IMG/VR virus record: IMGVR_UViG_3300017788_002263
Location: 1-35,925 of that record
Length of the DNA stretch: 35,925 bases
Reading direction: 5' to 3' (one strand)
Source: a virus
A model generated the notes under the pieces. That model did no database searches and had not been told where the DNA came from. It saw nothing but the letters and a program-made list of their open reading frames with translations. The translations under genes and the position numbers were made by a program. This document shows, piece by piece, positions 2,316-33,259 of this stretch (position 1 is its first letter; the number at the start of each line of letters is the position of its first letter).

Positions 2316-2324
2316 AATTTACTC

Positions 2325-4232: not shown

Positions 4233-4244
4233 ACGTTCCTTTCC

Positions 4245-4925: not shown

Positions 4926-4936
4926 AAAAGGTGAAA

Positions 4937-4965: not shown

Positions 4966-4979
4966 AGTCACTAGGCAAT

Positions 4980-6575: not shown

Positions 6576-6609
6576 TTTCTAATACCTACCTTTCTTACCC
6601 CTGCAAGCC

Positions 6610-12274: not shown

Positions 12275-12278
12275 TTAT

Positions 12279-14480: not shown

Positions 14481-17400
14481 CTACCTAGAAGCTTTTTCTT
14501 GGGAAGCCTTATATTCCCGTCTGTGCCGCGCGGCTACCACCGCCTGCTTGGCCTCACGATAGAACCCAGAAATCTTGCGTTGAATGACATCCTTCCTGTC
14601 CTCCGAGACAAAGCCCTCGAGGTCGGCCTTGGACAGCACTCCGGGCTGGCTGGAATTCCCGTATAGGTATCCTTTGATTTTGGGCGCGGCCAGCTTCAGC
14701 ACCATGTCGTACTCATCGTTGGTTAGGGACACCCGCTTGCGGAGGTATGGGTCATCAAAGAACCGGTCAGGGCGTGAGAGATCCGGACTCCACACCTTGT
14801 CTGGGTGCTGCTGGTTGTAGTTATCGACAAACTTCTCAAAGTCGGTCTTTCCGTAAACCACTCCCCCTCGGCCGGGAAGTAGCCGGGTGATGGATCTCGT
14901 AACTGGCCCCGCGCCCTCGTATGGAGTCGGGTTAGGGATCTTCATTCCCTCAAAGGTTCTTCGGTCCGGTATGCCAAGCTCGTTCCCAAAGGCCGGGAAG
15001 ATGGAGAACAAGATGGCGTCCATACTCAGAGGCTCTGGGTTGTAAACGTCCTTTTCGTACTCCGGAACACCGCCAAGGGGCTGCTTAAACAGGTTGGGCA
15101 CCAGAATTGCGGAAAGCTTGTCTCTGAGAACCCTTTGCCATCCCACTCCCTGCCCGGGGAACAAGCTGATCAGGTCACGCCATTGCTTGCCGTAGGTTCT
15201 GGTGGCGGGTGCAAGGAAGTAATCCTTGAGGAAGTTAACTGCGGCGCCTGTCGCCAGATCCGGCGATTTGACGCCCTCCCTTAATGAGCGGGAGACGTTG
15301 ACGCTGCCAGAAAGCGCAGTCGCCAAGGGTTCTACTCGGCTGTAATCTACTGAATAATCAGGCACATCCGGATAACCAAAGTTCCTTGGTCGAATCAAAA
15401 TCTTAAACGGAGAGTTCCCGAATCGGGTCGTTCGCTGCCCTCCCGGGGACAAGGGATCCGGCGTTCCGGTGATAAGGAGCCACTTCTTGTCGTCATCATC
15501 ACCGCCCTCGCCTAGACTGTGAAGCAAGGCGGCAAAAACCATCGTACCGATAGAAAGGCTGGCCATTCTTTCGATGATGTCGTCGTACTCCTTGATGGGG
15601 GCATACCTTGTCCTCTTCCCGTCCACCTCGGTTGTTTTTGTGCTGTCCGCAAACCGGAACCCAAGATTCACCACGGCCGGGAGCGTGTAGGATAAACCCT
15701 CTCGGTAGATGTTGAATGGCGATTTGATCAGAACAAAGAATGACTGCATTAGGCGCACAATCCCCCTGAATGGCAAGGTCGTGGCGGCTGCTACCAGGTT
15801 GTCGGACTCCATCCGCGTGGCGAGGGAATCCAGCTGGGTATTGAGCTGTGCAAGTAGAGTCATGGCTCTCCCGCCGGCATCACCCACTGATTTAATCTTC
15901 TGGTCTTCGGGTTCTAGGTCTTGGGTAAAGGTTTCCTTGGTGGCGCGTCGGGCGGCAAGGATCCAGCTGGTGGATCCCACTCCCTCAATCTCCTTTTCAA
16001 TAAAGGAATCCAGTTCCGGCCCGTTTAGCCCGGCTGCTTTACCCAACCGATAGGCATGCGCCCCCACCGCGGTATAGGCTCGGAACATTTTTGAGAATTC
16101 GTCCATTGCCAAAAGGCCACGCAACGGCATCCGGACAATCCGTCCGAGCCTGCCGGGGATCCTGGTCCTCCGGGTTCTTCCGTATTTCTGTAGAAACGCC
16201 CCAAATCTGGTTTGCGGGTTATCGATGTCTTCCATGACTCCGGTGACGCTGTAATCGAAGAATCCGGCTTCCGTTGCCCACGCAAGCCTCGCCATGGTTG
16301 CAGCCCGCATCCAGGCCGGCGCGACGTGCTTCCAGATGTAACCGATTTCCCGACCAACTCCCTTGGCTAGTTCTGGGGTGGTCTTGTAGGCAATCCCCGG
16401 CCGGAATAACGGCACTTGCTGAGGGCTTAGCTGGTCAACTTCGACCTCCTGATGGAATCCGGCCTTGCCGAGGGCGTACACCATTATGCCCTGCATGCCG
16501 CGGTGTGCGCTGACGCTGATCGGTGAGAACGGCGTGGCAAAGACGTTGGCAAGCTGGGTGGCAACCCCGCTGAAGATGCTCGATACGTAAGACTCAAAGA
16601 TTGTTCCATCCAGCGTGGGTCGCCCGGCCTGAATCGCTCTAGCCAGAACCACGGCATGCTCTGGCTTGCGAAGGTCAAACAAGTTGCTTTTGCCTTTCCG
16701 GTCCTTTGATACCCATTGATACTCACCGCTTGGGGTAAGGGTCAGCCCAAGCATATTGTAAATTTCCTCCATCGCCTCCGCCTCGGATAGCGGCTGGTCG
16801 TCAGGGATCCGCTGGGCGAGGATCTGCCTCATCGAAGTGTCGTTTCTGGCGTTCTCAAGAAGTGCCTTGCGAAGCTGGTCGCGGGTCATCCCGGTCTGGG
16901 CAATCTGGCTAAATCTCCGCTTGGCTTCGGCCCGCATGGCATCCATGGCGGCCTTAATGTCGGCCAGCTTGATCTTGGTCTGCTTCGAGACGGAGACCGG
17001 ATCGTGCCCGATCATGATCAGCTCCACGGCCTCGCGCTCCCTTTGGGACAGGCGAACTTGGTCAAGCATCTGGGTGGCCGGCTTGCCGGTACGGATCTCG
17101 GAAAGCTCGGACTCCTTCATCAGCTGTTCCAGATTTGTGCCAAGCCCGGACAGAATGCGGTTCACCTCGGCAAGCCTCGTCTGGGCTTCTTGGGTCAACA
17201 CCTGTTCACGCGTGACCCTGTTCTGAAGGTCCGCGATCTGGTTCTGCATCGCCTCGATTTCGGCATTTCTCTGTTCCAGCACGGCCGAAAGATCCCGCAA
17301 GGCACGAGCGGAAGCCTCCGATTCGCCGGCCAACCCCTGCTGGGATTCGGTCAGGGCATTCCTTTGGCCGATTAAGTCCTCAAGCGTGGCCTGAAGGCTT

Positions 17401-20400
17401 CGGATGTCTTGGCGGGTCTGGGCTTCTGTTGGGTAATACTTCAGATCCATGACCCGGTTGCGTTCTGGCGCCACCATTACCGACATGAGGAATTCCGAGT
17501 TCCTTTGCGCCGGTGTCATCATTCTGTCGTAGCCCGCCCGCAAGGCCCGCCCCTGTTCGGAGCGAATCTCTCGGTACATGTACGCCATCGCGTACGCCTT
17601 ACCGAAGTCCGCGGCATTCCCGCTTACCAACGCGGTTTGGGCCAAGTCGGCCACCAGCTTCATCCCGGCCACGGTGGTTTCGGTGTTTAACGATTGCCCG
17701 GAAAGCACCGCCTCTTGGACGGCGAGCCTACCCTCTGGCGTGGAGAGCATCTGGGTGGCGGCTTCCTCAACTGCCGCATCCTGTTTGACCCCAAGCCCGC
17801 GCTCGAAACGCATCGCATCCATCGCATTGATGAGGTCGCGCTGTTCGGCGGTTTGACCAGGGTTTGCTAGGCTTCTGGCTTCGCCGCCGGTTTCGCCAGT
17901 CTTATAGACCCCGCCCATCGTTTTCATGCCGGACGGCTGAATCCGCAGCTTGCGATACATCTCCATCACTTCGGGGATGTCCTTACCAAGGTCGCCCAAC
18001 AGATCCGCCCGCATGGACATCAGTTCTTCTGGTGTCAGGGGCTTGGGCGTAAGGACCGGATTACCGGCCTCGTCGTAGTCAAGCCTTTGGGCAAACAGGC
18101 TGTCTTGCACCATGGATGGCCGCGTCTCTTGCTCCAAGGCGAACGGCTGAGTTGTCGGGTTCAGCGTGGTCTGGGTGGACATCAGCTGGCCCTCTGGCTG
18201 GTATCCGGACAGCTGGCTCTGGTTGGCGACAAACTCTAGTTGGCGAAGTCGCTTGTCGTTATAAGGCTGGCCGGCATCCCGCAGGGAGCGTAGTTGGTTT
18301 ATTTCGGAAAGTATTTTTCTGGCTCCGCTTGGCTGCTCTGGCCCAATCGTCTGGGCGTTAAGGGCAAACTCCATTTGGGGTGCGATATACTTGGCGGGCG
18401 GTGTCTCGATGACTGACGGCGTGAATGCTGTCGGGCGGTTCGGGGATCCAGCGTACCTCTCGGTGTCAAACAGGGCTTGCTGAACCCCGACACCCGGCAT
18501 CTTGTACTTGGTGGCAAACCTCTCAATTTCAGAGATGCGCTTACGCTGTTCGTCCGTTGGGGTCGGAATGTCGGTCAGTCTCTTGTATTCCAAGGCCATC
18601 GGGTTCTTTTCCCCGCCCTGCTCCGAAGGGGCTATGTCATCGCGGGTGTAGGACTTGACCACTTGCACCATCCCGCGGATCCCGGGCAACCCGGCCACGG
18701 CGGCCGATATGGTCTTGGTGACGGCCCTCCTTGGGTTGTCGATGCCCCTCGTGATCCAGCCTTCCCCATTCAGCCTTGGCCGGATTGAGTATGCCCCCTT
18801 GGTGGTAGTCACCAGGCCGCCCCTTGGCATGGCTTGAATGGTGTTCGTTACCTTGTCTTCTAGCTTGTCGCCGGTGATCCGCTGGGCAAATAGCTCGGCC
18901 TGGGTGGTCGGGGTTGCGGATCTGGACGCAGACTCCCTCTTTCCAACAAGGGTCTGATAGTCGGTGATCGGGATTGCCCCGATGTCCATAAGAGATCCCG
19001 CCGTAGTACCGACTAGGGTTCCGGCCGCCAGATTCCGAACCGCGCCCTTCATATCTCCCCGAAGGTTCAGAAGGTCTGATTCCAACTGGTCGAACCACTC
19101 CATCAGATAATCGTGAGGAGTTTTGGTTAGCCCCTTGGGGACATCCAGATTGGCTATCATGCCCAAGAACTCTGGCCTAGTCATGGTTTCAGCAGAAAAC
19201 TCATCCAAATTCTTGAAGCCATACAGTATCGACATGGCCTTCTTGGTCGGGTCTCCCACAACCCCAAGGATCCGCTGTTTGAATACCGGCTTATTTCCTC
19301 GAATCGTATAGGTCGAATATGCCGAAGGGGCTACGTTCTGTGTTCTCAGCTTTTCTAGCCCAGAAGGGGTAAGAATCAGCTTGCCGTCCGCTTCTACATC
19401 AAGCCCAACCAAGGATCCGGCTGGGCTGGACACAAAGAAGTCGTTGGTCGCCCCGTTCTTATTGACATAAGCATCCAAAGTGTCATTTGGCACTCCAGCC
19501 TTCCCCTGAAGCCCCAGTTCCGTGAAGTGGTCGTAGATCGCCTTTGAGTTGGATGCGTCGATATGGGCAGACATATACAGCCCGCCTGCGTAGCTCGCCC
19601 GGTGCATGGGCAGGGTGATGGAGTAAGAGGCGGTAAGACCTGACCCAAAGATGGCATTCTCAATCGGTTGCCCCGCATCGTCCTTCGCATACTTCAAGGC
19701 CCCCAGATAGGCCTTCACTAGGCTTTGCATTGCTGGGATCGCCCCTGTGGGGTTGTCGGCGTCCATGGGCTGCTTGCTGGCGTAAGTGGTTAGGGCATCG
19801 CGATACTTTGAGCCTGAAATCTCTTGGCCACGACGGGTTGGCCGGAAGTTATTGACGACCTCGCTGGCAATTAGCTGGGCAGTAAAGGCATGGATAAACT
19901 CATGCAGAATGACCCTTGGGCCAAGTTGCCCGGGGTGAAGCCGGATAATCCCCATTGTGAATGGGTCATACTTATCAGAGGCAAAATGCGAAGACTTTAT
20001 GGACTCATCAATCACCACATCAGTATTGGCGGCTCTGCCAAGGAACGATGCCGAATTGGCCTCAATACCACGGACCAACGCCTGTCCAAGCAGCCGGTAG
20101 TACGCCCTGATCGCCTTGTTGTTTTCATTTTCCGGTTCGGCAATTCCGCGGATCAGGCTGATGGCCGGTTGCGGGCCGGATTTCAGGGCCAGAATGGCTT
20201 GCCCCAGCTGGGTATTGGCAAACTGGCGCACCAGATTGGCGGTTTCCGCATCCCCCTCGGCATCGGTGGCGTAAATCCGCTGGGCATTGACGGACATGGG
20301 GCGAACCAACCCCGCCTCCATCGCCAGCCGCAACGCCTTGCTGACGGGCTTCTTGGGCTTGGAATTGGTGGCAAACAGGCTGTTGTCGCCGGCAAAATCC

Positions 20401-23400
20401 TGCAACGCCCGGAGCGCATCGTCGTACATCCGTTGAGCCATCTGCTTGTTGGGACGATCCTTGCCGTCCTCGCCCACGATTGGCGGTAATCCAAACTCGT
20501 CGGCAATCGCCTCGAAAGTCATCCCGCGGTTATGGGCCACAAACACTTGGGCCAAACGCGGATCTATGGTCTGGAATGCGGCCTCCATGTCGCTACGAAG
20601 TGCCTTGGTAAACTCAGTCTCCTCGATGGCCTTGGGCGTGATGATGTCCGGCCCCTCCTCCTCATTGACCGCCGTGGCTCTTCCGGCCAGCACTTCGGCC
20701 ACAGTTTCCTCATCCTCAAGGATCTGCATCCCTTGTTGTTCTGGCGGTTCGACCTCGAACTGGCCGAACTTCTGGTAAGAGGTGAGGACGCTGTTTTTGG
20801 CGGCCTCGACCATGTAGGAAAAAATCTTCTTGGGGATCCCGCCCTCGGGGGCTTCCGATCCCTCCATTTCGGCAAACTTGCCCGGGTCTTGCGTCCGCAT
20901 GACGGCAAGGGCTTTGATGGCCTTGAGAACCCCCGACACCGCCGAGTCTTCGACATACGAGGCATCCATATTGGGGAACATCCGCAGCACCATCCGCACG
21001 GCCGGCGATGGCCCGACGTTGCCATCCGAATCCAAGGTCTGCTGGGTGGCGATCCGGTAGTAGTTCCAAATCTCTGGCGTGATCTCGTCCCCGATCCGCT
21101 GGGCGTGGATCTGTACCGAGCGCGGGCCGGAATAGGCGTAGCCCTCGATAGCCGAACCAGCCGTATCGCTAATCCCAACCGACTTCGCAACCTCTGAGTA
21201 TGGCGTCCAGTTTGGGCCTTCATTGGCGGGCGCGGATTCCATGAAATTTGCCAAATTGTTCTGCGCCCGAAGAAGACCTGCAGAAGACTCGGATCCAAAT
21301 GGATATAAAACCGTATTTGGGCCAATCCGGCTCATCACGTACGCCTGGTTTAGCTCTGACATGGTGAGCGGCCCACGCACCTCTCCACCCTTATCTAGGT
21401 CAGCATAATAGTACCGCTGGGAGTTTTGGCTTGGCTTGCTTTGTGACCGCATCCGCTTGGCGATGTAGTTCCCAGCGTCAAATCCACCCATCTCCACCAC
21501 CACATACGGCCCCTCGGCCGACACCCTCGCGTTGGGAGCAATCTTTTCAAGCTCAGTCTTCACCCCATCCGGCACTCCGGACTCTTCCATCATCGCCATA
21601 TCCGCCAGCTGGTCTTCGACAAGACTGCTTACCGGGATGATGGACTTCAGGGAGTGGGGCGTTTCGATGGCTGTGGCTTCGGTGGTGGCGTATGACAGGG
21701 TAGCCCCGTCCGTGAACACCACTTCGGTTGCGTTATGGTGTCTGGTGATGGTGCTGTTGAGGTAATCCAAAACTTTCTCGGAATCGGAGCGTTGGATCGT
21801 CTCTTGAACGTTCAGAATATTGGAAAGCTTTCGGAGTTGGCTGAATTCGGCCTGATGGGGGACAACGATGCCGGTTGTCTCGCTCCCGTCCTGGTTGGTG
21901 AACCGCATGACGCGGTGGTTCAACTGCTGGCCGAACAGCCTCGTGGCCATGTCGGCCCCCACCAGAGGATTGCCAACAATGACGAAGTGATCCTGTTGCA
22001 TCGCCTTTTGACGCTCTCTGTCGTAAGCCTCGGATACGGCCTGATTCCGCCGGCGATTGTTCATCTTGTTTACGAAGTCTTTTTGGCCTTCTTCCGTGGC
22101 CACCGCTCCTTCTGCCGTCATGGCGTCGATGTCCTCGGTTACGGCCAAGGCTTCGGCAAATGCGTCAATGACCTCTTTCTCGGTTTGGGCGTTCTCCGTC
22201 TTTTCGGATACGTAGGAAAGGATCTCGCGCGTACGTACCGGCGACATCTCGATGATTGTGTTCCCGTCGTAATAGAGACTATTTAGCGTCTTGCCGTCGG
22301 AGAACTTGCGCTTCACCCGGAAGAATCCCGGCCGGTATCCCGCCCGATCCATGGCAAACGACATATACTTTTCACGTAGTCTGAACGGATGGTTCTCCCA
22401 GGCCTTGGCGGCCGCATAGGATTCGGTTTGCCTGAAAGTGCGTAAAAGCGCGGCCTCGGCATCCAGCCCGCCAACCGCGCCGTCCTCCAGCAGGGGCATC
22501 TCTACCCCAAGCTCATTCTGTTCCAGCGGGTTGTTGTTAAACGCCGCCCGGGCTGAGGCCAGCCGTGATAGCGGATTGGCCGACAGAGGAACCGGCATCA
22601 GGTGATTGAACCCTGCGCTCTGGATCAGCATTCGCTGGGAAGCAACCACGTGGGGGTATTTCAGGTTGAGTCTCAACCCTGAAACAAATACCGGCACTTG
22701 GGTATCGTTGATATGATACCAGTAGCTTCCGCCCACTTTCTCGGCCGCATCCGCCACGGCCGCTTGCGCCACCGCCATCTTGCGGGTGATGGCCTGGATA
22801 AGGGAACTCTTGGCCTTCGGGTCAAGGCGGGATCTGGCGGTGATGTAATTTACCCTGTCTTGGAGATACTTTTCGGCCGATTCGTTGTACTTCTGCACCA
22901 GTTGGGCCGTGTCGGCCTTCACCCTATCAATGTCCCTGACCAGCTGCTCAGAGGTCGGCGGCGGGGTCGGGTTGGTGAATCTGTACCGGCGTAGCTGGGT
23001 CGGTTGGGCGGTTCCGATGTCCGGCTCACCCTCCTTGCGTGGGGCGTAAGGGGCCATCCCGGGCATGTCGTCCACCAGCACGGCCTTGTAGTCCATCTTT
23101 TCGGACGTCAGGTTGTAGCGTCCGGCCATCTTCTCGGTTTCTACGATCTCGTTGTATTCATCCCGTACTTGCTCGGAAATTTCAGAGTAGATGTCGAGCG
23201 GCATGATGATGAGCATGTGTTCAAACCTTCGGAACACGTCGCCGTTGCCGGCTCCCTTCATCAAATTCGCCCGGATCTCCTCCTCGTTGGATCCTGGGAA
23301 ATACTCGTTATGACGGCTCTGGAACTCTTGGCGGAAGGTTTCGTCCCTTGCCAACACATTCGCCATCGCAAGGTCGCCGTAGGCATTGTGCATGTCCTCG

Positions 23401-26400
23401 CCAAAGGTTTCCGACATATCCAGCCGCTGCCCTCCGGTGCTTGAGGCTCCGAGGCGGGACATCTTCTTGGCCGTCAGGGCCATGATCCGTTTCTCGGCCG
23501 GCAACTCCTCGGCATAGGCCATATAAAGGTGAGGGGCGGTCAGCTGTCCGGTCCGGTTCACGCGGAAAGCCACCTGCACGGTGTCCACCACGTTGGGGGA
23601 TGGCTGCAAAAGGAAGAACACCCGGTCTTTTTGTGACGAGAACTTGGGTGAGTTATGGGCGTTGATTCCGGTGGATCCCGAGCGGGACACGGCAATCACG
23701 TTTATGTCGTCCATGTTGTTGAACATGGAAAGCGAGGCCATGCGGTCCTGGTCGAGGTCGGTCCTTTTCTCCCTTGTTCCATCCGGCATCACGGTTGCCG
23801 AGCGTCCGGAAATCTCCACGCTGGGGATCTGCACCGATTCCAACTGCTGACGCAGGCTGTCCATTGGGGAAATTCCCAGCCTCCCCAGAACATCCCTTGA
23901 GGATTCGATCATGCTCTTGGCGTCCGCAATCTGTTGAAGAACTCGATCTGCTTCCGCCATCGCGCCCGGGTACTCCTCTTGGGTGCGGTTCAGATCCAGC
24001 CTTTGCCGGAAAAGAGTTGTCTGCCTGCCCTTGGGGCCAACCTTGGCCGTGATGGTCACGTACTTCAGCTTGTCGGTGTAGCGGGCGAGGGCGTCGGCAA
24101 ACGAGGCGTTCTTGGGGTCAGTTTCTAGTGAAACATCGTCCAGCAACTCCTGTACGGCCGCCTCGCCGGTGGCATCGGAAGCCACAAACACCTTCTTGCC
24201 CTGGTCGACCAAGGTTTTGATCTGCTTGGAGATTTCAGGAATCTTTGAGGATAAGACCATTAAATTGGCAATATTGTGGAACTGGGACTTCATCGGATAG
24301 GGATCCACCTTCACCGTCAGGGTCTCTGCCAGTTCTGGCTTGTCCTTGACTAGTTCATTGGCTTTCGCTTTCGCCAGAACAAGCAACGCACCCTTCAGCT
24401 GTTTCATAAACGGCCCGGCTTGGACTTGCTTCAATTCGCCGGCGATTTCATTGGCCGTGTTATTGACCTCGGCAATTTGCGGTCCGGTGCGAAGTGCCAA
24501 AGGAGTGAACGGAACAGGCTTGCCATCGTGGGTAAGACCGCGCTGATAGCGGATATATTCGCCAGCCGAGACAAGGCCTCGGTTCATCAGCTCTAACAGG
24601 GGGTTGGCAAACTTCTTGAGTAGCTGGTTCAGCCGGCGCACAGACGGAATGGCCCGATTGACCGATGTGAATGGGAAATACAACCGCATCGCCTCAAGGT
24701 TTTTGATGGCTGTTCCGCTTGAGAACGCCACGCCCTTGGCTTTCTTGAGGATCCCGCGGGCGACATTGGACGACAGCGAGTCGCCGGTTCCCTTGTGGGC
24801 CTCGTCAATGATAAAGACGGCGTTGGGGGCGAGGGCATTAAGCACAGGGTTCACGTCTTTGAGTCGCGCCTGCTCCCAGGTGGTCATTACCATCGTCTTC
24901 CCGGCGGGCAGCTTCTTGCTGGAAATAATGGAATCAAATTGCGACTTGGGATTCTTGCCCTTGTTGGTCAAAACATTCCCATCACCCATCACAGACTCAA
25001 AGTCCTGGTCGGTGATAAACGGATCCATCTTAAAGCCGAGATCGCGGAAGTCATCCATTAGGGTCGGATACAGCGTCCGCGAGTTGGCCGTGAAAAAGAT
25101 CGGGGTTTGACCACGCAGATGGGCGGCGTAAAGCAGGGCCGCACAGACTCGCCCCTTTCCAATCCCCATCTCGTGACCAATGATGTTGGCCTTGCCTGAA
25201 TCCATGCGATCCAGGGCAGCCGCGATTGTCTCGACTTGCTCCTTGTTGAATCTGGACCCGGCCTTGGGGTTTACGACCTTGTAAAGCTCGGACGGGTTGG
25301 AGAACCCAAGCGCGTTGGACACGTAGCTCTCGAGGCCGCCACGCTCACGATCAATTCTCTCAAGGTTTCTGCGGATCTCGTCCGCAATCCCGACAGGAGC
25401 AAATGTTTTTAGGCTTACTCCGCTGCCCTGAATGACCGGAACCCAAGGAACCTGGGTTTCTAGCCCGTCGCCTAGAGTTCGTTCAGCGTCATTGACGCCA
25501 GCAGTTCGCCCAGCTTCGACTCCCGGTCCTCTCCTTTGGAGCGTGCGAATAGCGCCAAGATTTGGTTGTGCCCCTCCACCGCTCCGCACGCCTGCCGGAA
25601 CAGCATTGTCAGCCACTCCTTGGTTCTCTCCGGATCCTCCGTCAGGTCGTTGATCCACGGATCCTGGTACAGGGCGTCCGCGTCCGTCTTCCACATTCTG
25701 AAGCTGTCCGGGTTGTCCCGCTGCCACTTCACCAGCCGGGGGAACGCCTCCTCCGCTGCCTGTTCGCTGTATTCCTTCACTTGCTCCGGGTTGAGTTCCT
25801 TCTTCACGATTAGAGTCTATCCCTCCTTCTTGGTTGTCGTCAACTCGCTGGGCCATAAGCTCCTGCGGGTCAATTGTTTGTGCTTTAATGTCTGGCATTT
25901 GGTCAAGTTGGTTGACCTTTGCTGTGTCGGTTGCCCATCTTTCCCACGAATCAAGCTCTGCCTGTAAATCCGTGATTTTCTGGGCAACGATTGTTTCGGC
26001 GTTTTCCCCGGTTCCAACCGGGATCCCGCTTTCAGCCAGTATTTTCGCCCTCTGCCCGCTGCTCAGCTTCTTATAGTTTACAAACGCGCTGAGCTGTTCC
26101 TTGAGGTCTTTTTGTTTTTTAGCAGCTTTTTTTGCCCTTTGCTTCATTAGCTCAAAGGCAGAGTCGTCACCCCCAAAAAGATCCCCCTGCGATTCAGAGG
26201 GCCCGCGGTCAGCAAATTTCGCAACCATCCCAGCAATAAAGTTTTTAAGCTCCGCTTGGGTTGTCCTTTCAGAGGTAATCAGGGCCAAGGCTTGCCGCTG
26301 AATCCCCTCGTTTACCGTTCCCGCAGACTTGGGAGCACCCGAAGCGATAATAAATGCCATCATGGGGTCAACCTTCCCCATCAAGACTCCGCTATAAATA

Positions 26401-29400
26401 TCCTCCGTGGCCTCGTTCGCGATTGTGAAGCCCTGCTGCCCCTTGCCGGCCGCCCGCATCAGTCCCCTCTTTTCGGCTTCCTCCATGCTGATCCCGGATT
26501 TTCGAAAATAATAAGCAAAATCCTCAATATCCCCCTGTCCGTCACGAATATTGGCTTCGGCATCTAAGGTTTCAGCTTCAGATTGCCCAAATCCCTCGGA
26601 TTCTTTTTTAATCTCGGTGGGGATAGTGGTTAGATTGTTTCTCTTGGCTAGATCCAGCCGGTGGCGGCCTGTAATAATTTCAAAAACACCGTCGTTTCTT
26701 AGCCAAACAACGACTGGGTTCCTTGGTGTGGGGCGGTATTCACCAGAAAGAGGCTCGACCACGCCAGTGTCTTTATTGGATTTTCTCTTGAACTGCCTTA
26801 TCTTGTCGTTAACGACGATCTTGTTAATTGGGAAATCGACAACTTGGCCCGACGGGATTGCCTTAAGCTCTGAGTCAGTCCTCTTGGGGACGATCTTTAC
26901 CCTCGGCGGTTCTGGCGGTGCAATAGTTCCAACTGCCGGACTTTCTTGAGCAGCTTGGCCGATAACGGGCGGCTCAACTGGACCTTGCGGGACTTCTGGC
27001 GTGGCTTGCGGAACATTTCCTCCTCCTTCTTCCGGCGGTGCGCGGGGCTGGGTTTCGGGTGCTTGTGGCACATTTGGGCCTCTTTGTGCCATCTCCGGCC
27101 TTGGCTGGGATGGCGTGTCGGAAAGCACGTCGTCGATCTCGGAAAGCAAGTCGTTCAGATCCTCGGCCAGCTGCGGGTTGGCCTTGACTAGGCTGTCTTT
27201 AATGGAAAACAAGGCGCGGTAAACCTTGCGGAGATAGTCCGAGATAACCTTGATAATTGTCCGCGAACCGCCGCTCGCTTGCGCGGCCGTGCGAAGAAAG
27301 TTGCGGGCCTCCGTTTGGGGCTGCCCGTAGGTCTTCAGCATTCGGAGCATTTCCGACATAAAGAGGGGCATAGCCTTTACATTCTTTGCCCCAGACATCC
27401 CGACCCGGGTCATGTATTGCTGAACATCGACAATTGTTTTGAATTGGGATTTTACCTCGCCACCGACCATCGCATCTTCTGCGGCCGCTAGGTTTGCCCC
27501 ATCGAGGTTTTTCCTAGGCAGATAAAGGTTGGCAGCTGCCACCACGGACTGCTCCACCGCCTTGTCCTGTCTTGCCACCGCAAATATGCGGGAAAGCATG
27601 TTGGCCCGCTGTTGCGACCAATGTTGGCGGTAGTTGTCCAGGCCTTTCCGCTTTGCGTCCAAAGCACCTTCAGCCAGATCCCCGAGGTGGGCTATTTCCT
27701 CCCTGACATACCGGTTGTTGGCCTCGGGATCCGTGTTCTCCATCCTCATGAAAGACTGTTTGTTTAGGCTGATTCGAAGGGTCTTGTTGTCCGGCTCGAA
27801 ATTCACCGAGGATTCCGCCCCGTCGGAAACAAATCTTACATCCAACCCCTTCGACCCAATCGCCGTCACCAAGTTCCTCATTTTTGACTCAACCGATGCC
27901 CATCGCTCGTCGGGAGTCTTGCCTTCAAGCCTCGCCATCAGGGCCGGGGATCCGGTTTTGGCGCTGGCTTCGGCAATCTGTTGCGGAGTCTTTAGCCTGG
28001 GCTGGTCAACGACCCTCGGTTTTCCGGTGGGTTGCTGTTCCGGCTGGGGTGGAGCGACCTGTTCCGGCGGCTCGCCTCCCCCGCCTTCCGCCTCTGTCGC
28101 TTGCATCGCTTCGGCCGCCCTTTCGAGCGAAACTTTCAATAATTCGGATAAAGTTGGCGTCTGTGAAAAGATATCCTGTTTAATGAACTCCGAGGGGATC
28201 CTCAACCCGTTGGAATCGGTCTGGATGATGGGCATCCCCCGGTATTTGGCTTTCAGCTCCTCCTGTGTGAGGGTGTCCGACTCGAACATTGCCTTGGCGG
28301 CGATAAGCCCGGCGGACTGCCGGTCCAGTCCTCCGTCCACCGGATCGGTTGCCAAGGATCCGATTTCTCTGGCAACTTCCAGCCGTAGCCGCGTCTCGTT
28401 CTGGATCATGGCGGCCAAGTTGGCTCTTTCGGCGTAAATCCTTGCCATCCCGACCAAACGCTCGTTTTGCTCGCCGCTGATGGCCTGTCGAATCCCTTCG
28501 GTTATCTTGGGGCGTAATCTTGGGGGCGGCGCGCCTTTGGCTATGTCTTGGTCAATGGACTGACCCAGCTCGGCCAGCCGGCGTGAGGGCGCGCCCTTAA
28601 TGCTGTCGGCAATCCCCTTCAAGAACTGCGTTTGCTGCTCATCAAGATCCCCGATGACCGGCCCGAATGACTCGGCGGTGGCCGGATCCAGTATCTGCTC
28701 GGTCAGGGAGTCGGCCCAGGTTGACCAACCATTCAAGGGAATATCGTCGGTTGCGGATTTCATGTCATCCGCCTGCTTCTTCAAGCCTCCCGCCGTCATG
28801 GCGTTTTGCGCTCCGGCAACAATGACTGTTCCGCCCCCAATCGCCGCAGTTCCGGCACCACCCGCCCACATGGCGATGTAGACGCTCTTGAGAACGTCCT
28901 GACTTAAGGGGCGGTCGGGGTCGATCTTTTTGCCGTTGATCAGTTCGCCGATGTGCTTGGCGATGGCGTTAGACCAAAACGTCTGCAGCCCCTCCTCCAG
29001 CCCCTCTGTGGCACTTCCGCCCACCAGCGCGAGACCAGCCTTGGCAAACATTCCGCGGAGACTCTGCGCGCTCATGGTCTTCATCTTTTCAAGGAAGGCC
29101 TTCCCCGCTATTTTGCCGAGACCTAGCGTAACTATGTTGCCGGCCTGCTCGAATCCGGCGACCGGGATGGCTTCGGCAAGGGCGACCACGTGATCCGGGT
29201 CTTTTATCCCAGCCTGGATCTGGCTTTGGATGGCCTCGTCATACGCCGGGCCGAAGGTTGTCAGTAGCCCAATCCCCGGGCTGGCGATGGTGGCTCCTAC
29301 ATAAACCGGCAGTTCGCTAAGAACCTTGACCACTTGCCCCACATCGCTCTCCCGGTATTCCGTGCTGGTCGGGGCAAGCCCCATGAACTCCTCGTTGCGG

Positions 29401-31379
29401 ATGGCTTCTTCGTTGGCCTTGGCAGAAGCCGCGGCGCTTTCAAAGAACTCGGCCGATCTCTTGGTTAATTCACCCGAAAACAGCCTGTCGGATAGCTGAA
29501 GTGCTGCGGTGGCAATTGGCCAACGATCAAGCCCCGGCGTACCCTGAACTGTTCCCGCCAGCCCCTTGACAAACCCCGCCAGCCCGCGTTTCTTAATGTC
29601 GTTGGCCGCCGCAAGGTAAATGCCTGACGCAAACTTTTGGTTAAGCTCGAACGCCCCGCGCGCGGCTTGGCGGCCGGTATCCTTGCTGAATAGTTTGTCA
29701 AACCCGCCCTTGAACCAGCTTAATGGGTTTTGGGGCGGCTGACTCGGAGTGCTGGGCTGAGTTGGCTGACCAGGTTGTGGCGGCTGGCCTTCCCCGGGGT
29801 CGATAAACAGAGGCCCTGTGAACGGCTTGCCATCCTCGAGGTTTCTACGTTGCTTGGCTTTTTCGACTTTTGTGGCCGTATCTTGCTCAAGCTTGGTTAG
29901 CCTAGTCTGAAGCTCTTTCTGAATCCTTTGTTCGTTTTCCGTGACAAACTGGCCTTGGACTTTTGCGCTTTCTTGGGCAACGGAAGCCTGTCTGCCAATC
30001 TTCCCAAGCTGGTCGTCCAAGACCTCGATGGCATCGGCATACCCTTGTGCCCGCGCCCGGGTGTTTAACCCGGAACCCTTTTTATTTGCGTCTGCGGCGT
30101 CTGCATCATCCAGTAGCTTGTTGTAGACAGTGGCCAGCCGATTTCTGCGTCCGGCCAGGGTTGAATAACTGATGGACGTGTCCGCCGCCTGCTCGATGAA
30201 TGGCCGTAGGAATTCAGAGGCCTTTTCCTTTGCAAGCCGCCCCTCGGCCTCAATTCTGGCCTTCTCCTTTTGCGAGGCCCGCGTTTCGTAAATAGCCTGC
30301 GGGGTAAGGGTCGCGTCCTTGAACACCTCGGAAAGCGGTAAGACCGGCTTCTGGATGTTGGTTAACCCCTCGCGGATGGCTCCAAGCAGGGGATCCTTTT
30401 CGATGTCCTCCTGTTTGGCTCCTGACTGCAAAAGCTGCTGAAGCCGGTTGTCGTAGATCGACTCACCCTCATCCAGAGACATCTGGGACTGAAGCTCAAC
30501 CTGAAGCGCGCGGTTCCGAATCCTTGCTTGGTTCTTTTCGGCCAGCCTTGCATTGAGTTCAGCAATCTTCTGGTCGCGGGACTGGCCGATTCTCGTGGCC
30601 GCCCCCTGTCTCGTCTTGGCGTCTGCCTTATCCCCAAGCTCTGCCCGCAAGACGGGGTCCATCTTGTCCCCATCCGGCTGCCAATCGGGGATGGGGGTTT
30701 GCGTGAGCGCATCAATCTCAGACTTGAGCGTCTCTGACTCCACATCCAACTGCTGGCCCCTTGCGTCCAGAACTGTTTTGGCAGAACCAAGCTCGTATTG
30801 CCTGTTCTTTCTGACCGTCTCCTTGGCTAGCGTTGAAAGCCCCTGGTCGGAGACGCCCTGTAAATCAAAGGCACTTCCGATGTCCTCAGCCTTCGTGGCC
30901 GCAAACGGCTGGTTGGGGTCGGAGACTCCAGAGTCCTGTTCGCTTGTATATACTCTGTATATCCGTGACGGGTTGGGGAAGTTGGGGTCGTTGGCGTCGC
31001 CCGCCCGATACCTTATGTTCTGCCTTTTGCGTGGCTTGACCTTGCCAGCCTCGTCAATCTGCCTTTTTTCTTCTGTAATGGGATCCTGAAACTCCGATGT
31101 TCCAAACTTAACAGATCTTCCGAACTCGTTGTTTGGTACATAAGTTGGCCGGCGGAACCCGCTTTCATCCTTTTCTGACTGGATCCCGGCCTCTTCAAAG
31201 GCCACCTCGGTTCCGTCGTTGTACGCCCGAACGGCGTCTTTGACTACGCCCTGCTGATATTGCTCAACCGCTCTCGCCTCGCGCCTTGTCCTTGGCACAT
31301 AAGGCTCTGGCTCTGGTCCCCCGAAATTGTCCTCGGGCTTCCCGTCGATTCCAGAGCCGCCAAAATCAGGTAAGCCCAT
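14481..31379 (-). CDS. Giant polyvalent virion/ejection protein with ParB, SNF2/strawberry-notch-like helicase and zincin domains
   Basis: An uninterrupted 5632-residue frame starts at ATG 31379 (GAGGTGA 7 bases upstream). Visible order: coiled coil about 180-515; Pro/Gln linker 526-553; hydrophobic segments 677-860 with a Gly/Glu-rich helix (SATEGLEEGLQTFWSNAIA); degenerate zincin EEIAH at 1227-1231; ParB-like domain about 1500-1620 (GRHRLDLAK at 1571); low-complexity linker 1842-1970; SF2 helicase 2040-2640; a helicase-associated domain near 3128-3300; GYF_2-like domain 3322-3362; HTH about 3606-3670; zincin with HEFIH at 3826; coiled coil 4650-4765; a second HTH 4774-4821; C-terminal phage polyvalent module 4900-5632. 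By analogy with polyvalent proteins and the N4 virion RNA polymerase (about 3500 residues), it is probably packaged and injected to protect or process incoming DNA. It is the largest gene here by far. Proteolytic maturation is possible. Confidence 0.9.
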   Translation of the reverse strand: MGLPDFGGSGIDGKPEDNFGGPEPEPYVPRTRREARAVEQYQQGVVKDAVRAYNDGTEVAFEEAGIQSEKDESGFRRPTYVPNNEFGRSVKFGTSEFQDPITEEKRQIDEAGKVKPRKRQNIRYRAGDANDPNFPNPSRIYRVYTSEQDSGVSDPNQPFAATKAEDIGSAFDLQGVSDQGLSTLAKETVRKNRQYELGSAKTVLDARGQQLDVESETLKSEIDALTQTPIPDWQPDGDKMDPVLRAELGDKADAKTRQGAATRIGQSRDQKIAELNARLAEKNQARIRNRALQVELQSQMSLDEGESIYDNRLQQLLQSGAKQEDIEKDPLLGAIREGLTNIQKPVLPLSEVFKDATLTPQAIYETRASQKEKARIEAEGRLAKEKASEFLRPFIEQAADTSISYSTLAGRRNRLATVYNKLLDDADAADANKKGSGLNTRARAQGYADAIEVLDDQLGKIGRQASVAQESAKVQGQFVTENEQRIQKELQTRLTKLEQDTATKVEKAKQRRNLEDGKPFTGPLFIDPGEGQPPQPGQPTQPSTPSQPPQNPLSWFKGGFDKLFSKDTGRQAARGAFELNQKFASGIYLAAANDIKKRGLAGFVKGLAGTVQGTPGLDRWPIATAALQLSDRLFSGELTKRSAEFFESAAASAKANEEAIRNEEFMGLAPTSTEYRESDVGQVVKVLSELPVYVGATIASPGIGLLTTFGPAYDEAIQSQIQAGIKDPDHVVALAEAIPVAGFEQAGNIVTLGLGKIAGKAFLEKMKTMSAQSLRGMFAKAGLALVGGSATEGLEEGLQTFWSNAIAKHIGELINGKKIDPDRPLSQDVLKSVYIAMWAGGAGTAAIGGGTVIVAGAQNAMTAGGLKKQADDMKSATDDIPLNGWSTWADSLTEQILDPATAESFGPVIGDLDEQQTQFLKGIADSIKGAPSRRLAELGQSIDQDIAKGAPPPRLRPKITEGIRQAISGEQNERLVGMARIYAERANLAAMIQNETRLRLEVAREIGSLATDPVDGGLDRQSAGLIAAKAMFESDTLTQEELKAKYRGMPIIQTDSNGLRIPSEFIKQDIFSQTPTLSELLKVSLERAAEAMQATEAEGGGGEPPEQVAPPQPEQQPTGKPRVVDQPRLKTPQQIAEASAKTGSPALMARLEGKTPDERWASVESKMRNLVTAIGSKGLDVRFVSDGAESSVNFEPDNKTLRISLNKQSFMRMENTDPEANNRYVREEIAHLGDLAEGALDAKRKGLDNYRQHWSQQRANMLSRIFAVARQDKAVEQSVVAAANLYLPRKNLDGANLAAAEDAMVGGEVKSQFKTIVDVQQYMTRVGMSGAKNVKAMPLFMSEMLRMLKTYGQPQTEARNFLRTAAQASGGSRTIIKVISDYLRKVYRALFSIKDSLVKANPQLAEDLNDLLSEIDDVLSDTPSQPRPEMAQRGPNVPQAPETQPRAPPEEGGGNVPQATPEVPQGPVEPPVIGQAAQESPAVGTIAPPEPPRVKIVPKRTDSELKAIPSGQVVDFPINKIVVNDKIRQFKRKSNKDTGVVEPLSGEYRPTPRNPVVVWLRNDGVFEIITGRHRLDLAKRNNLTTIPTEIKKESEGFGQSEAETLDAEANIRDGQGDIEDFAYYFRKSGISMEEAEKRGLMRAAGKGQQGFTIANEATEDIYSGVLMGKVDPMMAFIIASGAPKSAGTVNEGIQRQALALITSERTTQAELKNFIAGMVAKFADRGPSESQGDLFGGDDSAFELMKQRAKKAAKKQKDLKEQLSAFVNYKKLSSGQRAKILAESGIPVGTGENAETIVAQKITDLQAELDSWERWATDTAKVNQLDQMPDIKAQTIDPQELMAQRVDDNQEGGIDSNREEGTQPGASEGIQRTGSGGGVPPAGEVAAGQPGQLQNVEDGRGRPVPGSVDQRPDGGSGENQGVADNAVPAGVRSGGGAQPNLGAIRTLQRRGPGVEAGRTAGVNDAERTLGDGLETQVPWVPVIQGSGVSLKTFAPVGIADEIRRNLERIDRERGGLESYVSNALGFSNPSELYKVVNPKAGSRFNKEQVETIAAALDRMDSGKANIIGHEMGIGKGRVCAALLYAAHLRGQTPIFFTANSRTLYPTLMDDFRDLGFKMDPFITDQDFESVMGDGNVLTNKGKNPKSQFDSIISSKKLPAGKTMVMTTWEQARLKDVNPVLNALAPNAVFIIDEAHKGTGDSLSSNVARGILKKAKGVAFSSGTAIKNLEAMRLYFPFTSVNRAIPSVRRLNQLLKKFANPLLELMNRGLVSAGEYIRYQRGLTHDGKPVPFTPLALRTGPQIAEVNNTANEIAGELKQVQAGPFMKQLKGALLVLAKAKANELVKDKPELAETLTVKVDPYPMKSQFHNIANLMVLSSKIPEISKQIKTLVDQGKKVFVASDATGEAAVQELLDDVSLETDPKNASFADALARYTDKLKYVTITAKVGPKGRQTTLFRQRLDLNRTQEEYPGAMAEADRVLQQIADAKSMIESSRDVLGRLGISPMDSLRQQLESVQIPSVEISGRSATVMPDGTREKRTDLDQDRMASLSMFNNMDDINVIAVSRSGSTGINAHNSPKFSSQKDRVFFLLQPSPNVVDTVQVAFRVNRTGQLTAPHLYMAYAEELPAEKRIMALTAKKMSRLGASSTGGQRLDMSETFGEDMHNAYGDLAMANVLARDETFRQEFQSRHNEYFPGSNEEEIRANLMKGAGNGDVFRRFEHMLIIMPLDIYSEISEQVRDEYNEIVETEKMAGRYNLTSEKMDYKAVLVDDMPGMAPYAPRKEGEPDIGTAQPTQLRRYRFTNPTPPPTSEQLVRDIDRVKADTAQLVQKYNESAEKYLQDRVNYITARSRLDPKAKSSLIQAITRKMAVAQAAVADAAEKVGGSYWYHINDTQVPVFVSGLRLNLKYPHVVASQRMLIQSAGFNHLMPVPLSANPLSRLASARAAFNNNPLEQNELGVEMPLLEDGAVGGLDAEAALLRTFRQTESYAAAKAWENHPFRLREKYMSFAMDRAGYRPGFFRVKRKFSDGKTLNSLYYDGNTIIEMSPVRTREILSYVSEKTENAQTEKEVIDAFAEALAVTEDIDAMTAEGAVATEEGQKDFVNKMNNRRRNQAVSEAYDRERQKAMQQDHFVIVGNPLVGADMATRLFGQQLNHRVMRFTNQDGSETTGIVVPHQAEFSQLRKLSNILNVQETIQRSDSEKVLDYLNSTITRHHNATEVVFTDGATLSYATTEATAIETPHSLKSIIPVSSLVEDQLADMAMMEESGVPDGVKTELEKIAPNARVSAEGPYVVVEMGGFDAGNYIAKRMRSQSKPSQNSQRYYYADLDKGGEVRGPLTMSELNQAYVMSRIGPNTVLYPFGSESSAGLLRAQNNLANFMESAPANEGPNWTPYSEVAKSVGISDTAGSAIEGYAYSGPRSVQIHAQRIGDEITPEIWNYYRIATQQTLDSDGNVGPSPAVRMVLRMFPNMDASYVEDSAVSGVLKAIKALAVMRTQDPGKFAEMEGSEAPEGGIPKKIFSYMVEAAKNSVLTSYQKFGQFEVEPPEQQGMQILEDEETVAEVLAGRATAVNEEEGPDIITPKAIEETEFTKALRSDMEAAFQTIDPRLAQVFVAHNRGMTFEAIADEFGLPPIVGEDGKDRPNKQMAQRMYDDALRALQDFAGDNSLFATNSKPKKPVSKALRLAMEAGLVRPMSVNAQRIYATDAEGDAETANLVRQFANTQLGQAILALKSGPQPAISLIRGIAEPENENNKAIRAYYRLLGQALVRGIEANSASFLGRAANTDVVIDESIKSSHFASDKYDPFTMGIIRLHPGQLGPRVILHEFIHAFTAQLIASEVVNNFRPTRRGQEISGSKYRDALTTYASKQPMDADNPTGAIPAMQSLVKAYLGALKYAKDDAGQPIENAIFGSGLTASYSITLPMHRASYAGGLYMSAHIDASNSKAIYDHFTELGLQGKAGVPNDTLDAYVNKNGATNDFFVSSPAGSLVGLDVEADGKLILTPSGLEKLRTQNVAPSAYSTYTIRGNKPVFKQRILGVVGDPTKKAMSILYGFKNLDEFSAETMTRPEFLGMIANLDVPKGLTKTPHDYLMEWFDQLESDLLNLRGDMKGAVRNLAAGTLVGTTAGSLMDIGAIPITDYQTLVGKRESASRSATPTTQAELFAQRITGDKLEDKVTNTIQAMPRGGLVTTTKGAYSIRPRLNGEGWITRGIDNPRRAVTKTISAAVAGLPGIRGMVQVVKSYTRDDIAPSEQGGEKNPMALEYKRLTDIPTPTDEQRKRISEIERFATKYKMPGVGVQQALFDTERYAGSPNRPTAFTPSVIETPPAKYIAPQMEFALNAQTIGPEQPSGARKILSEINQLRSLRDAGQPYNDKRLRQLEFVANQSQLSGYQPEGQLMSTQTTLNPTTQPFALEQETRPSMVQDSLFAQRLDYDEAGNPVLTPKPLTPEELMSMRADLLGDLGKDIPEVMEMYRKLRIQPSGMKTMGGVYKTGETGGEARSLANPGQTAEQRDLINAMDAMRFERGLGVKQDAAVEEAATQMLSTPEGRLAVQEAVLSGQSLNTETTVAGMKLVADLAQTALVSGNAADFGKAYAMAYMYREIRSEQGRALRAGYDRMMTPAQRNSEFLMSVMVAPERNRVMDLKYYPTEAQTRQDIRSLQATLEDLIGQRNALTESQQGLAGESEASARALRDLSAVLEQRNAEIEAMQNQIADLQNRVTREQVLTQEAQTRLAEVNRILSGLGTNLEQLMKESELSEIRTGKPATQMLDQVRLSQREREAVELIMIGHDPVSVSKQTKIKLADIKAAMDAMRAEAKRRFSQIAQTGMTRDQLRKALLENARNDTSMRQILAQRIPDDQPLSEAEAMEEIYNMLGLTLTPSGEYQWVSKDRKGKSNLFDLRKPEHAVVLARAIQAGRPTLDGTIFESYVSSIFSGVATQLANVFATPFSPISVSAHRGMQGIMVYALGKAGFHQEVEVDQLSPQQVPLFRPGIAYKTTPELAKGVGREIGYIWKHVAPAWMRAATMARLAWATEAGFFDYSVTGVMEDIDNPQTRFGAFLQKYGRTRRTRIPGRLGRIVRMPLRGLLAMDEFSKMFRAYTAVGAHAYRLGKAAGLNGPELDSFIEKEIEGVGSTSWILAARRATKETFTQDLEPEDQKIKSVGDAGGRAMTLLAQLNTQLDSLATRMESDNLVAAATTLPFRGIVRLMQSFFVLIKSPFNIYREGLSYTLPAVVNLGFRFADSTKTTEVDGKRTRYAPIKEYDDIIERMASLSIGTMVFAALLHSLGEGGDDDDKKWLLITGTPDPLSPGGQRTTRFGNSPFKILIRPRNFGYPDVPDYSVDYSRVEPLATALSGSVNVSRSLREGVKSPDLATGAAVNFLKDYFLAPATRTYGKQWRDLISLFPGQGVGWQRVLRDKLSAILVPNLFKQPLGGVPEYEKDVYNPEPLSMDAILFSIFPAFGNELGIPDRRTFEGMKIPNPTPYEGAGPVTRSITRLLPGRGGVVYGKTDFEKFVDNYNQQHPDKVWSPDLSRPDRFFDDPYLRKRVSLTNDEYDMVLKLAAPKIKGYLYGNSSQPGVLSKADLEGFVSEDRKDVIQRKISGFYREAKQAVVAARHRREYKASQEKASR
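14484..16682 (-). other. Giant protein, C-terminal polyvalent-protein module
   Basis: Residues about 4900-5632. The marks are YVSSIFSGVATQLANVFATP (4930), LLAMDEFSKMFRAYTAVGAH (5085), LPFRGIVRLMQSFFVLIKSP (5200) and YSVDYSRVEPLATALSG (about 5341). The same series (a 'Y-x-S-x-L-x-G-P-x-T' start, 'DEFFK', 'PF-x-R-x-x-x-N' and 'Y-S-R-x-E-P-L') closes many phage polyvalent proteins. It is likely a virion-docking or membrane segment. Confidence 0.65.
19155..20102 (-). other. Giant protein, intact zincin metalloprotease domain with insertion
   Basis: Residues about 3760-4075. RVILHEFIHAFTAQL carries HExxH at 3826-3830. The downstream NLDEFSAE (4057-4064) supplies the late acidic residues seen in phage polyvalent zincins. 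About 225 residues separate the two, more than I would expect, and the spacer contains strand-rich sequence that looks like an inserted domain. Confidence 0.7.
21294..21416 (-). other. Giant protein, GYF_2-like domain
   Basis: Residues about 3322-3362. RYYYADLDKGGEVRGPLTMS, then LNQAYVMSRIGPNTVLYPFG, fits the bacterial GYF_2 pattern 'W/Y-Y-x-x-x-G-x-x-x-G-P-x-[ST]-x-x-E-L ... G-x-I-x-P-x-T-x-[VL]'. GYF folds usually bind proline-rich peptides. The giant's own Pro/Gln linker (526-553) is one possible ligand, which is speculation. Confidence 0.55.
23460..25262 (-). other. Giant protein, strawberry-notch-like SF2 helicase/ATPase
   Basis: Residues about 2040-2640. A Q-like motif (RFNKEQVETIAAAL) precedes motif I (GHEMGIGKGR, Lys2075), motif II DEAH (2192-2195) and motif III SGTA (2221-2224). 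Motif V is AVSRSGSTGINAHN (Gly2568 in GSTG) and motif VI is QVAFRVNRTGQL (about 2602-2612). The GxGKGR loop and the context of FSSGTAIKNLEAMRLY resemble strawberry-notch-type helicases. All key ATPase residues are present, so it should be active. Confidence 0.8.
25472..25807 (-). CDS. Nested 111-residue gene overprinted by the giant gene's linker
   Basis: This frame lies on the same strand, one base out of phase with the giant gene, from GTG 25807 to a TAG at 25472. The product (MKKELNPEQVKEYSEQAAEE ... KLGELLASMTLNEL) is balanced, helical and acidic, with four Trp. Its codons end in G or C almost throughout, like the rest of this genome's genes. In the same interval the giant frame reads a Gly/Gln/Pro/Glu/Arg low-complexity linker with many GGA, CGA and GAA codons. 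The nested frame is therefore the better coding candidate. AAGGAGGG lies about 14 bases before the GTG, longer than ideal, and an in-frame TAG stands just upstream. No family is recognised. Alternative: two compensating sequence errors hide a continuous giant frame. Confidence 0.65.
   Translation of the reverse strand: MKKELNPEQVKEYSEQAAEEAFPRLVKWQRDNPDSFRMWKTDADALYQDPWINDLTEDPERTKEWLTMLFRQACGAVEGHNQILALFARSKGEDRESKLGELLASMTLNEL
26520..26882 (-). other. Giant protein, ParB-like domain
   Basis: Residues about 1500-1620. The segment GQVVDFPINKIVVND opens the fold. VWLRNDGVFEIITGRHRLDL carries the ParB/Srx signature G-R-H-R, and AEANIRDGQGDIEDFAYYFR follows, as in ParB-like proteins with 'E-N-x-x-R'. 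In phage polyvalent proteins this domain is a frequent partner of helicases. Nuclease or CTPase activity cannot be decided from the sequence. Confidence 0.7.
28680..31379 (-). other. Giant protein, N-terminal coiled-coil and membrane-active region
   Basis: Residues 1-900. A charged, disordered start is followed by long helices, a Pro/Gln linker, then Gly/Ala/Val-rich stretches (LPVYVGATIASPGIGLLTTF at about 686, MWAGGAGTAAIGGGTVIVAG near 835). Such segments occur in phage ejection proteins that cross the host membrane. This is inference from composition. Confidence 0.5.
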
Positions 31380-32805: not shown

Positions 32806-32990
32806 TACTCTTGGTAGGCCTTTTTGGTTTTGATCTTGCTGTTCTTTCCGTGCGTGCGGCCAATAAAGGTCTTGGGTTTCGCCATGCCATCCAGAGCGGC
32901 TTTATGTGTCTTGGAAAGTGTGGCGTTAAGAAATTCAGAGCTAGGAACTGAATCTTGTGGCGATGGTCCGGCGTATTTTTTGTTTGGCAT
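32805..32990 (-). CDS. Short basic protein with KAYQE tail
   Basis: The 61-residue product runs from MPNKKYAGPSPQDS through LNATLSKTHKAALDGMAK to a basic tail TKKAYQE. It is rich in Lys and lacks hydrophobic segments. ATG 32990 comes four bases after the previous stop. AGGA, which is part of the preceding gene's KAYQD codons, serves as the ribosome binding site. The function is unknown. A DNA- or capsid-associated internal peptide is plausible from charge and position. The KAYQE end relates it to the two genes upstream. Confidence 0.65.
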   Translation of the reverse strand: MPNKKYAGPSPQDSVPSSEFLNATLSKTHKAALDGMAKPKTFIGRTHGKNSKIKTKKAYQE

Positions 32991-33259
32991 AGAGTTAGTC
33001 CTGATAGGCCTTCCGAGGGTTGATTTTGGGAGGGGCGTCAGCCATGCGAGCCTGAGGCTTGTTCCGATTCATTAGCGGGTTGTCGTTTATTTTTCTGCGC
33101 GAAGGCAGGGTCTTCAAATGATCTTTCCAGTAGCCGTACCGCTTTTCAGAAACATTCATCTTTTTGGCCGCGGAGGCGTCTATCTTGTTAGAAATTTTTT
33201 TAGAAATTTTCTGGCCGATTTCTTCAAATGGTGTCATAGAGTTAATCCTGGTAGGCCTT
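32988..33259. repeat. Two 25-base direct repeats at the junctions of the small basic genes
   Basis: Bases 32988-33012 and 33235-33259 differ at only two positions. Each covers, on the minus strand, the last codons (Lys-Ala-Tyr-Gln-Asp), the stop, a CTCT spacer and the next ATG. A weaker third copy is at 32803-32822. The repeat therefore encodes a peptide tail and supplies the AGGA ribosome binding site of the following gene. Confidence 0.75.
32995..33237 (-). CDS. Short basic protein with MADAPPKI...KAYQD tail
   Basis: The 80-residue protein starts MTPFEEIGQKISKKISNKID. It has a Lys-rich helix (AAKKMNVSEKRYGYWKDHL) and a basic middle (LPSRRKINDNPLMNRNK). It ends with the 16-residue tail MADAPPKINPRKAYQD (65-80). 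The tail is nearly identical to that of the 124-residue protein upstream, while the bodies are unrelated. It starts four bases after the upstream stop with AGGA as ribosome binding site. No family is recognised. Charge suggests nucleic-acid contact. Confidence 0.65.
   Translation of the reverse strand: MTPFEEIGQKISKKISNKIDASAAKKMNVSEKRYGYWKDHLKTLPSRRKINDNPLMNRNKPQARMADAPPKINPRKAYQD

Follow-up and report, generated by a model that had tools for sequence, protein, structure and literature searches.

The giant gene and its genomic setting

The window, by which we mean the whole stretch of DNA analysed here, is the entire IMG/VR record IMGVR_UViG_3300017788_002263 of 35,925 bases, and we take it to be a genome fragment because it has no end repeats. 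Its minus strand encodes, in order, the terminase large subunit (33712..35532; PHROG terminase, 9e-13), three small ORFs, a 455-aa gene, a giant ORF and the portal protein (12279..14471; phrog_1216, 1.3e-23), which lies directly downstream of the giant. The giant ORF (14481..31379) is a single frame that starts with ATG, is preceded by a Shine–Dalgarno-like GAGGTG and comprises 5,632 codons, and its product of 5,632 aa and ∼617 kDa contains a single cysteine. This position is syntenic, the giant gene being directly upstream of the portal gene in all relatives examined. Elsewhere in the window, a plus-strand block of tail- or host-recognition-like genes (7692–11267) is set inside the minus-strand structural operon, and one gene of this block has a sulfotransferase-like start, FIHIPRTGGTYLSKK. 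At 1546–2822 on the minus strand lie the genes of three neighbouring small proteins in which long stretches are rich in serine; two of these proteins have a related N-terminal half.

The record of the relative G007 is 64,722 bases long with 123-nt identical ends, which its giant gene crosses. By these ends, G007 is a complete circularly permuted genome of ∼64.6 kb, and the records of several other relatives are 63.8–64.9 kb long. Taking this circular relative as the measure, the giant gene occupies ∼26% of the genome. An initial sequence-only reading had given the gene as 47% of the window, a correct figure for what is a genome fragment; the same reading spoke of a small phage, which the size of G007 does not bear out.

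A frame of this length might be a misassembly or a fusion of neighbouring genes, a suspicion to which nothing but the unusual length lends weight. Scans of viral contigs, in which the portal and segments of the giant protein served as queries, brought up the relatives, and giants of 2.8–5.7 kaa turned out to be common among the IMG/VR relatives. Contigs from other metagenomes carry full-length uninterrupted homologues of 5,648 (G001), 5,605 (G002), 5,752 (G003) and 5,746 aa (G004), colinear with the window protein at 78–79% identity. A second clade (clade B), also colinear, has ∼30% identity to the window protein; its giants are 5,442 aa (G005) and 5,605 aa (G007, read across the permuted contig ends), and two further complete ones are 5,440 and 5,457 aa long. 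At least eight other full-length ORFs thus stand in separate contigs. Moreover, the gene is under purifying selection, with a whole-gene dN/dS of 0.06–0.08; of 224 windows of fifty codons, 219 stay under 0.5. The few windows of high dN/dS cover residues 1851–1975, the linker before the helicase, and the surroundings of residue 3301; in the linker the locally high ratio appears between G001 and G002 and is possibly an alignment artefact. Because independent contigs carry full-length giants under purifying selection, misassembly is excluded for practical purposes, and we reject it together with gene fusion, leaving it a negligible chance. The single uninterrupted 5632-residue protein of the sequence-only reading thus stands, and the misassembly for which that reading had allowed is contradicted by the same gene in independent contigs.

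Modules along the giant protein

The coordinates of all modules refer to the minus strand. The conserved N-terminal region (residues 1–350; 30330..31379) aligns with clade B by blastp over residues 22–348 and carries an [FY]xGP motif at residue 19. A further module (residues 670–1420; 27120..29372), recognised by sequence comparison and alignment, is common to clade B and to G012 and G017 and contains a degenerate metallopeptidase-like motif, REEIAH (residues 1226–1231; 27687..27704). Since this motif aligns to HEELLH in G005 and G007 of clade B, this second metallopeptidase-like site looks decayed in the window clade. The ParB-like (DdrB-ParB) domain (residues 1505–1660, with GRHR at 1571; 26400..26867) has a weak PHROG match in the window and matches ddrB-ParB at 6.9e-16 in clade B, and the region has 35% identity to Shewanella and Vibrio phage proteins. 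It is followed by a Strawberry-notch/SNF2-type helicase (residues 1960–2790; 23010..25502) with the motifs GIGKGR and DEAH (2192), which the window protein matches with Helicase_C_4 at 2.8e-17 and ResIII at 6.6e-7; a scan of bacterial genomes with the helicase profile brought up no relative. The zincin-like metallopeptidase candidate (residues 3700–4110; 19050..20282) contains HEFIH (residues 3826–3830; 19890..19904), the only HExxH in the window protein and one conserved in both clades. A profile of this region found no match in PDB, and the candidate is defined by its motif.

The early description of one very large phage protein, with a helicase, a ParB-like and a zincin-like part among its domains, was therefore right; profiles recovered the helicase and the ParB-like domain, and the zincin is recognised by its conserved motif but by no structural profile. 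Its proposed GYF_2-like domain (residues 3323–3356; 21312..21413) is not significant and is rejected (E 0.033; 14.4 bits against a cut-off of 25.8). Nor can its ‘at least eight’ modules be named with statistical support in domain profile searches. LPD38 (PF18857) gave no match in the giant, in a search where the positive controls gave none either.

Between the helicase and the zincin candidate, residues 3400–3690 (20310..21182) bear a resemblance to sigma-70 region 2 and region 4. The relevant standard comes from three relatives, G020, G018 and G015, in which Pfam Sigma70_r2 scores above cut-off inside the giant frame and is followed by region 4, a finding new here; in G020 the module covers residues 2440–2660. 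Together these three modules match 79 distinct PDB sequences, of which the best 60 are all sigma factors (top 1.9e-18), and they score 8e-20, 3e-12 and 2e-11 with a profile built from free-standing phage sigma factors. For the window clade, the whole protein was scanned with sigma profiles in 300-residue steps (74 stretches), and residues ∼3400–3700 were the only significant stretch, colinear over regions 2 and 4. Residues 3400–3690 reached 71% with the embedded profile (E 3.6e-5), 88% with embedded and free-standing sequences combined (2.9e-6) and 23% with the free-standing profile alone, whereas unrelated stretches reached ∼2% or less with the first two profiles. We read this stretch as a probable divergent sigma-like module, with sigma function as the least certain part of our interpretation. 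An alternative of real weight, to which we give somewhat less than an even chance, is that it is an unrelated helix-turn-helix DNA-binding region, in which case sigma activity would be found in the relatives and be missing from the window protein. In line with this alternative, the window clade has no Pfam match to Sigma70_r2, the region 4 HMM matches the window protein only weakly (0.0075), and a window-clade profile of the stretch found no match in PDB. It accounts less readily for a colinear region 2–region 4 match that is unique among 74 stretches and rises to 88% with the fuller profile, or for conservation of 96% within the clade where the whole protein has 78–79%.

The constant C-terminal module (residues 4450–5632; 14484..18032) is present in every relative compared, and its ∼1,100 C-terminal residues are the only part common to all of them (ORFs of 2,761–5,752 aa). 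Ahead of it the modules are swapped between relatives, and they include HATPase, MuF_C, ART, a methylase with SNF2 helicase, inorganic pyrophosphatase, ParB and sigma. The giant of G012 (4,525 aa; 410–13984) has a GHKL/HSP90-type ATPase in mid-chain (HATPase_c_3, 1e-11), and that of G023 (3–12728) combines an inorganic pyrophosphatase (InPase, 2.5e-45), a methylase and an SNF2 helicase; gp3 of the Bacteroides phage BS-TP4 has a 45% identical match to the G023 InPase region.

Inside the constant module, residues 4775–4820 (16920..17057) form a LuxR/NarL-like helix-turn-helix, for which the family profile matched PDB NarL at E 0.03 and several LuxR-type helix-turn-helices. Residues 4900–5530 (14790..16682) correspond to internal virion protein D (IVP-D) of marine T7-like phages by profile comparison, HMM and phrog_6651. 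Compared with known phages, the C-terminal half of the window protein had no match at 1e-5; matches arose only via G020, which linked the C-terminus to IVP-D of Pelagibacter, Roseobacter and Synechococcus T7-like phages. The module aligns with IVP-D in hhalign at 99.9% (E 6e-38), and an HMM built from marine IVP-Ds alone finds the window protein at 1.7e-8 and G020 at 5.7e-33. In addition, phrog_6651 (internal virion protein) is matched by 4 of 14 relatives, with a best value of 1.5e-18. By these profile comparisons, the C-terminal module of all relatives compared is homologous to marine T7-like phage IVP-D, a relationship which is new here, although the giant does not have the full-length IVP-D architecture, as ∼450 of ∼1,230 positions align. 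Direct homology to T7 gp16 was rejected (hhalign 0.2–0.3%). Because T7 gp16 is not detectably related, the label ‘ejection’ is drawn from the marine IVP-D annotation, T7-like gene order, composition and context.

Cysteine depletion and a proposed route into the host

The window giant has 1 Cys in 5,632 residues where ∼50–60 are expected (P ∼1e-21 to 1e-25). Across 19 giants there are 11 Cys in 94,597 residues, compared with 359 in 31,156 in the other complete ORFs of the same phages. Known ejection proteins behave in the same way: N4 gp50, gp51 and gp52 have 0 Cys in 4,294 residues (the N4 virion RNA polymerase, vRNAP, alone 0 in 3,500), P22 gp7, gp20 and gp16 have 0 in 1,309, and T7 gp15 and gp16 have 0 in 2,065, while the other proteins of these three phages have 8–9 Cys per thousand residues. 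BcepIL02 gp70 (0 in 4,667), the IVP-Ds (0 in 3,639) and the giants of X14 and Vibrio 1.211.A (0 in 2,740 and 2,715) are likewise free of cysteine, and BS-TP4 gp3 has 4 in 5,391. Embedded sigma modules have 0 Cys in 648 residues against 31 in 2,619 for free-standing phage sigma factors, thus the purge tracks fusion, not fold. The giant relatives are statistically non-independent of each other, but the proteins of N4, P22, T7 and the Bcep22-like phages appear to have arisen separately. Depletion is not universal among injected proteins, since the polyvalent protein P1 DarB, which passes through a long contractile tail, has 9 Cys in 2,255 residues. Low cysteine is also a property of some scaffolds and coiled proteins, so that the signature, strong where the protein is a giant, is weaker where it is small. 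Judged by composition, a near-total lack of cysteine is a signature common to the known ejection proteins of short-tailed phages, and it is new here: in the open-access literature we found no earlier mention of cysteine-free ejection proteins (prior notice elsewhere is possible), and the word cysteine is absent from the main text of the N4 preprint (PMC12633501).

The genes just upstream of the giant are Cys-free as well. These are the 455-aa gene (31438..32805) and three small ORFs of 61 aa (32805..32990), 80 aa (32995..33237) and 124 aa (33242..33616), all on the minus strand and each with 0 Cys; orthologues just upstream of other giants also have none. In the 455-aa gene and the three small ORFs, [FY]xGP motifs were seen 5 times where 0.33 are expected, and in three clades the motif recurs in the giants themselves, at around residue 20. 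These four genes are candidates for partner ejection proteins, and [FY]xGP could, speculatively, be a packaging signal. The three consecutive small ORFs (32805–33616) have near-identical C-terminal tails, KTKKAYQE, NPRKAYQD and KLRKAYQD.

Taken together, the giant is likely to serve both as a phage polyvalent protein and as an internal (ejection) virion protein, its whole chain being packaged and ejected, defending the incoming DNA and helping to redirect host RNA polymerase. Packaging, ejection, cleavage and every activity of the protein are what we infer here, packaging being plausible. In the proposed sequence of events, the giant would be made late and be taken into the prohead by means of the conserved IVP-D-homologous module at its C-terminus, which is encoded beside the portal, and the whole chain would then be threaded through the short tail into a new host with the DNA. 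A Cys-free chain would be selected because it unfolds, crosses the oxidising periplasm and refolds without disulfides. In the cell, where the modules would act at once after entry, the Strawberry-notch/SNF2 helicase and the ParB-like domain may guard the incoming DNA against restriction-type defences, a role modelled on the one put forward for DarB/DdrB-like proteins. The zincin may divide the chain into functional pieces, and recruitment of host RNA polymerase to early phage promoters may fall to the sigma-like module. Packaging and threading had at first seemed mechanically puzzling. Volume is no obstacle, as one copy of the giant takes up ∼1% of the space that 64.6 kb of DNA would fill; the mechanics of ejecting a giant protein are an open question for N4 too (PMC12633501).

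Whether the chain enters whole bears on a different possibility, namely that the giant is a polyprotein which its own zincin cleaves before or during head assembly, with some pieces ejected and the rest serving structure or assembly. The one HExxH conserved in both clades would suit this, and P1 DdrB undergoes processing ahead of packaging (Iyer 2017, PMC5512222), while N4 vRNAP, with a zincin motif of its own, goes into the virion uncleaved (PMC5512222). Since the lack of cysteine spans the entire window protein, which agrees with passage of every part, ejection of the whole chain is the simplest reading, and we consider the polyprotein rather unlikely. More remote still is the idea that the giant is at work in the producing cell only, as a helper in structure or DNA packaging near the portal with the helicase at its core. 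Location of the gene between terminase and portal would fit such a helper; the IVP-D homology of the C-terminus, the cysteine depletion common to proven ejection proteins and the anti-defence modules typical of injected proteins would not, and we hold it to be very improbable.

How phage transcription starts before any phage protein is made, and by what means proteins that exceed the tail channel several-fold in size enter a cell, are open questions. A T7-type RNA polymerase (PF00940) was absent from 18 records of the group, some of them fragments, and was found in two T7-like control phages. The family offers a testable answer on early transcription, in that phages without a T7-type RNA polymerase may inject a sigma-like module. 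We put forward tentatively, at a little under even chances, a wider proposal: that some short-tailed phages inject a sigma factor within a giant ejected protein and so redirect host RNA polymerase before phage expression, unlike N4 with its polymerase, and that whole-chain cysteine purging marks the tail-threaded proteins of podoviruses and can be recognised from sequence alone. Cys-free chains over thousands of residues, in the unrelated ejection proteins of T7, P22, N4 and Bcep22-like phages, make up this signature, which is what the family has to offer on the entry of oversized proteins, and if it holds widely, ejected effectors could be called from metagenomes.

Relation to known phage proteins

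The giant is not unprecedented, as Bcep22-like podoviruses carry proteins of 4.5–4.7 kaa. It is of a kind already known from the polyvalent proteins (PMC5512222) and the virion-borne Bcep22-like giants (PMC9144972). Like the phage polyvalent proteins described by Iyer 2017 (PMC5512222), it joins disparate domains in one chain, with an SNF2-type helicase, a DdrB-like ParB domain and a zincin motif, next to terminase and portal. The helicase, the ParB-like domain and the IVP-D module give it more than the two disparate domains in one large chain by which such proteins are recognised, and its late-gene context beside terminase and portal agrees with them also. The searched text of that study has the N4-type RNA polymerase as a transcription module and no occurrence of ‘sigma’, whereas related giants here have a sigma-70 module and the C-terminal IVP-D module.

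The DarB-like giants of Bcep22-like podoviruses, JC1 gp69 (4,515 aa) and BcepIL02 gp70 (4,667 aa), are similar in size and in taking up ∼22% of the genome. JC1 gp69 was detected in purified virions by mass spectrometry with 51 unique peptides (PMC9144972), and BcepIL02 gp70 shares the absence of cysteine. Unlike the window giant, whose gene comes before the portal, theirs follow the tail genes, and the C-terminal modules are not detectably homologous (E 0.2). The Bacteroides phage BS-TP4, an isolate, encodes gp3 (PQ571277; 202–16377), deposited as a hypothetical protein, which resembles the window giant in its 5,391 aa, its place directly upstream of the portal gene, a helicase homologous to that of the window (4e-43) and its few cysteines, but the family profile has no match to its C-terminal module.

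The N4 virion RNA polymerase is likewise giant and Cys-free with a zincin motif, and it is ejected, solving early transcription from the virion. N4 brings a polymerase, whereas the window group has no T7-type polymerase match and its relatives bring a sigma-like module. The marine IVP-Ds (HTVC011P, CRP-804 and S-TIP28; phrog_6651) share with the giant ∼450 homologous C-terminal residues and the lack of cysteine; however, they are ∼1,200 aa long and have no effector modules, and two tested phages encode their own RNA polymerase. As read from the sequences, three features set the present family apart from the known kind: a C-terminus of the IVP-D type, a sigma module carried by related members, and the signature in cysteine content.
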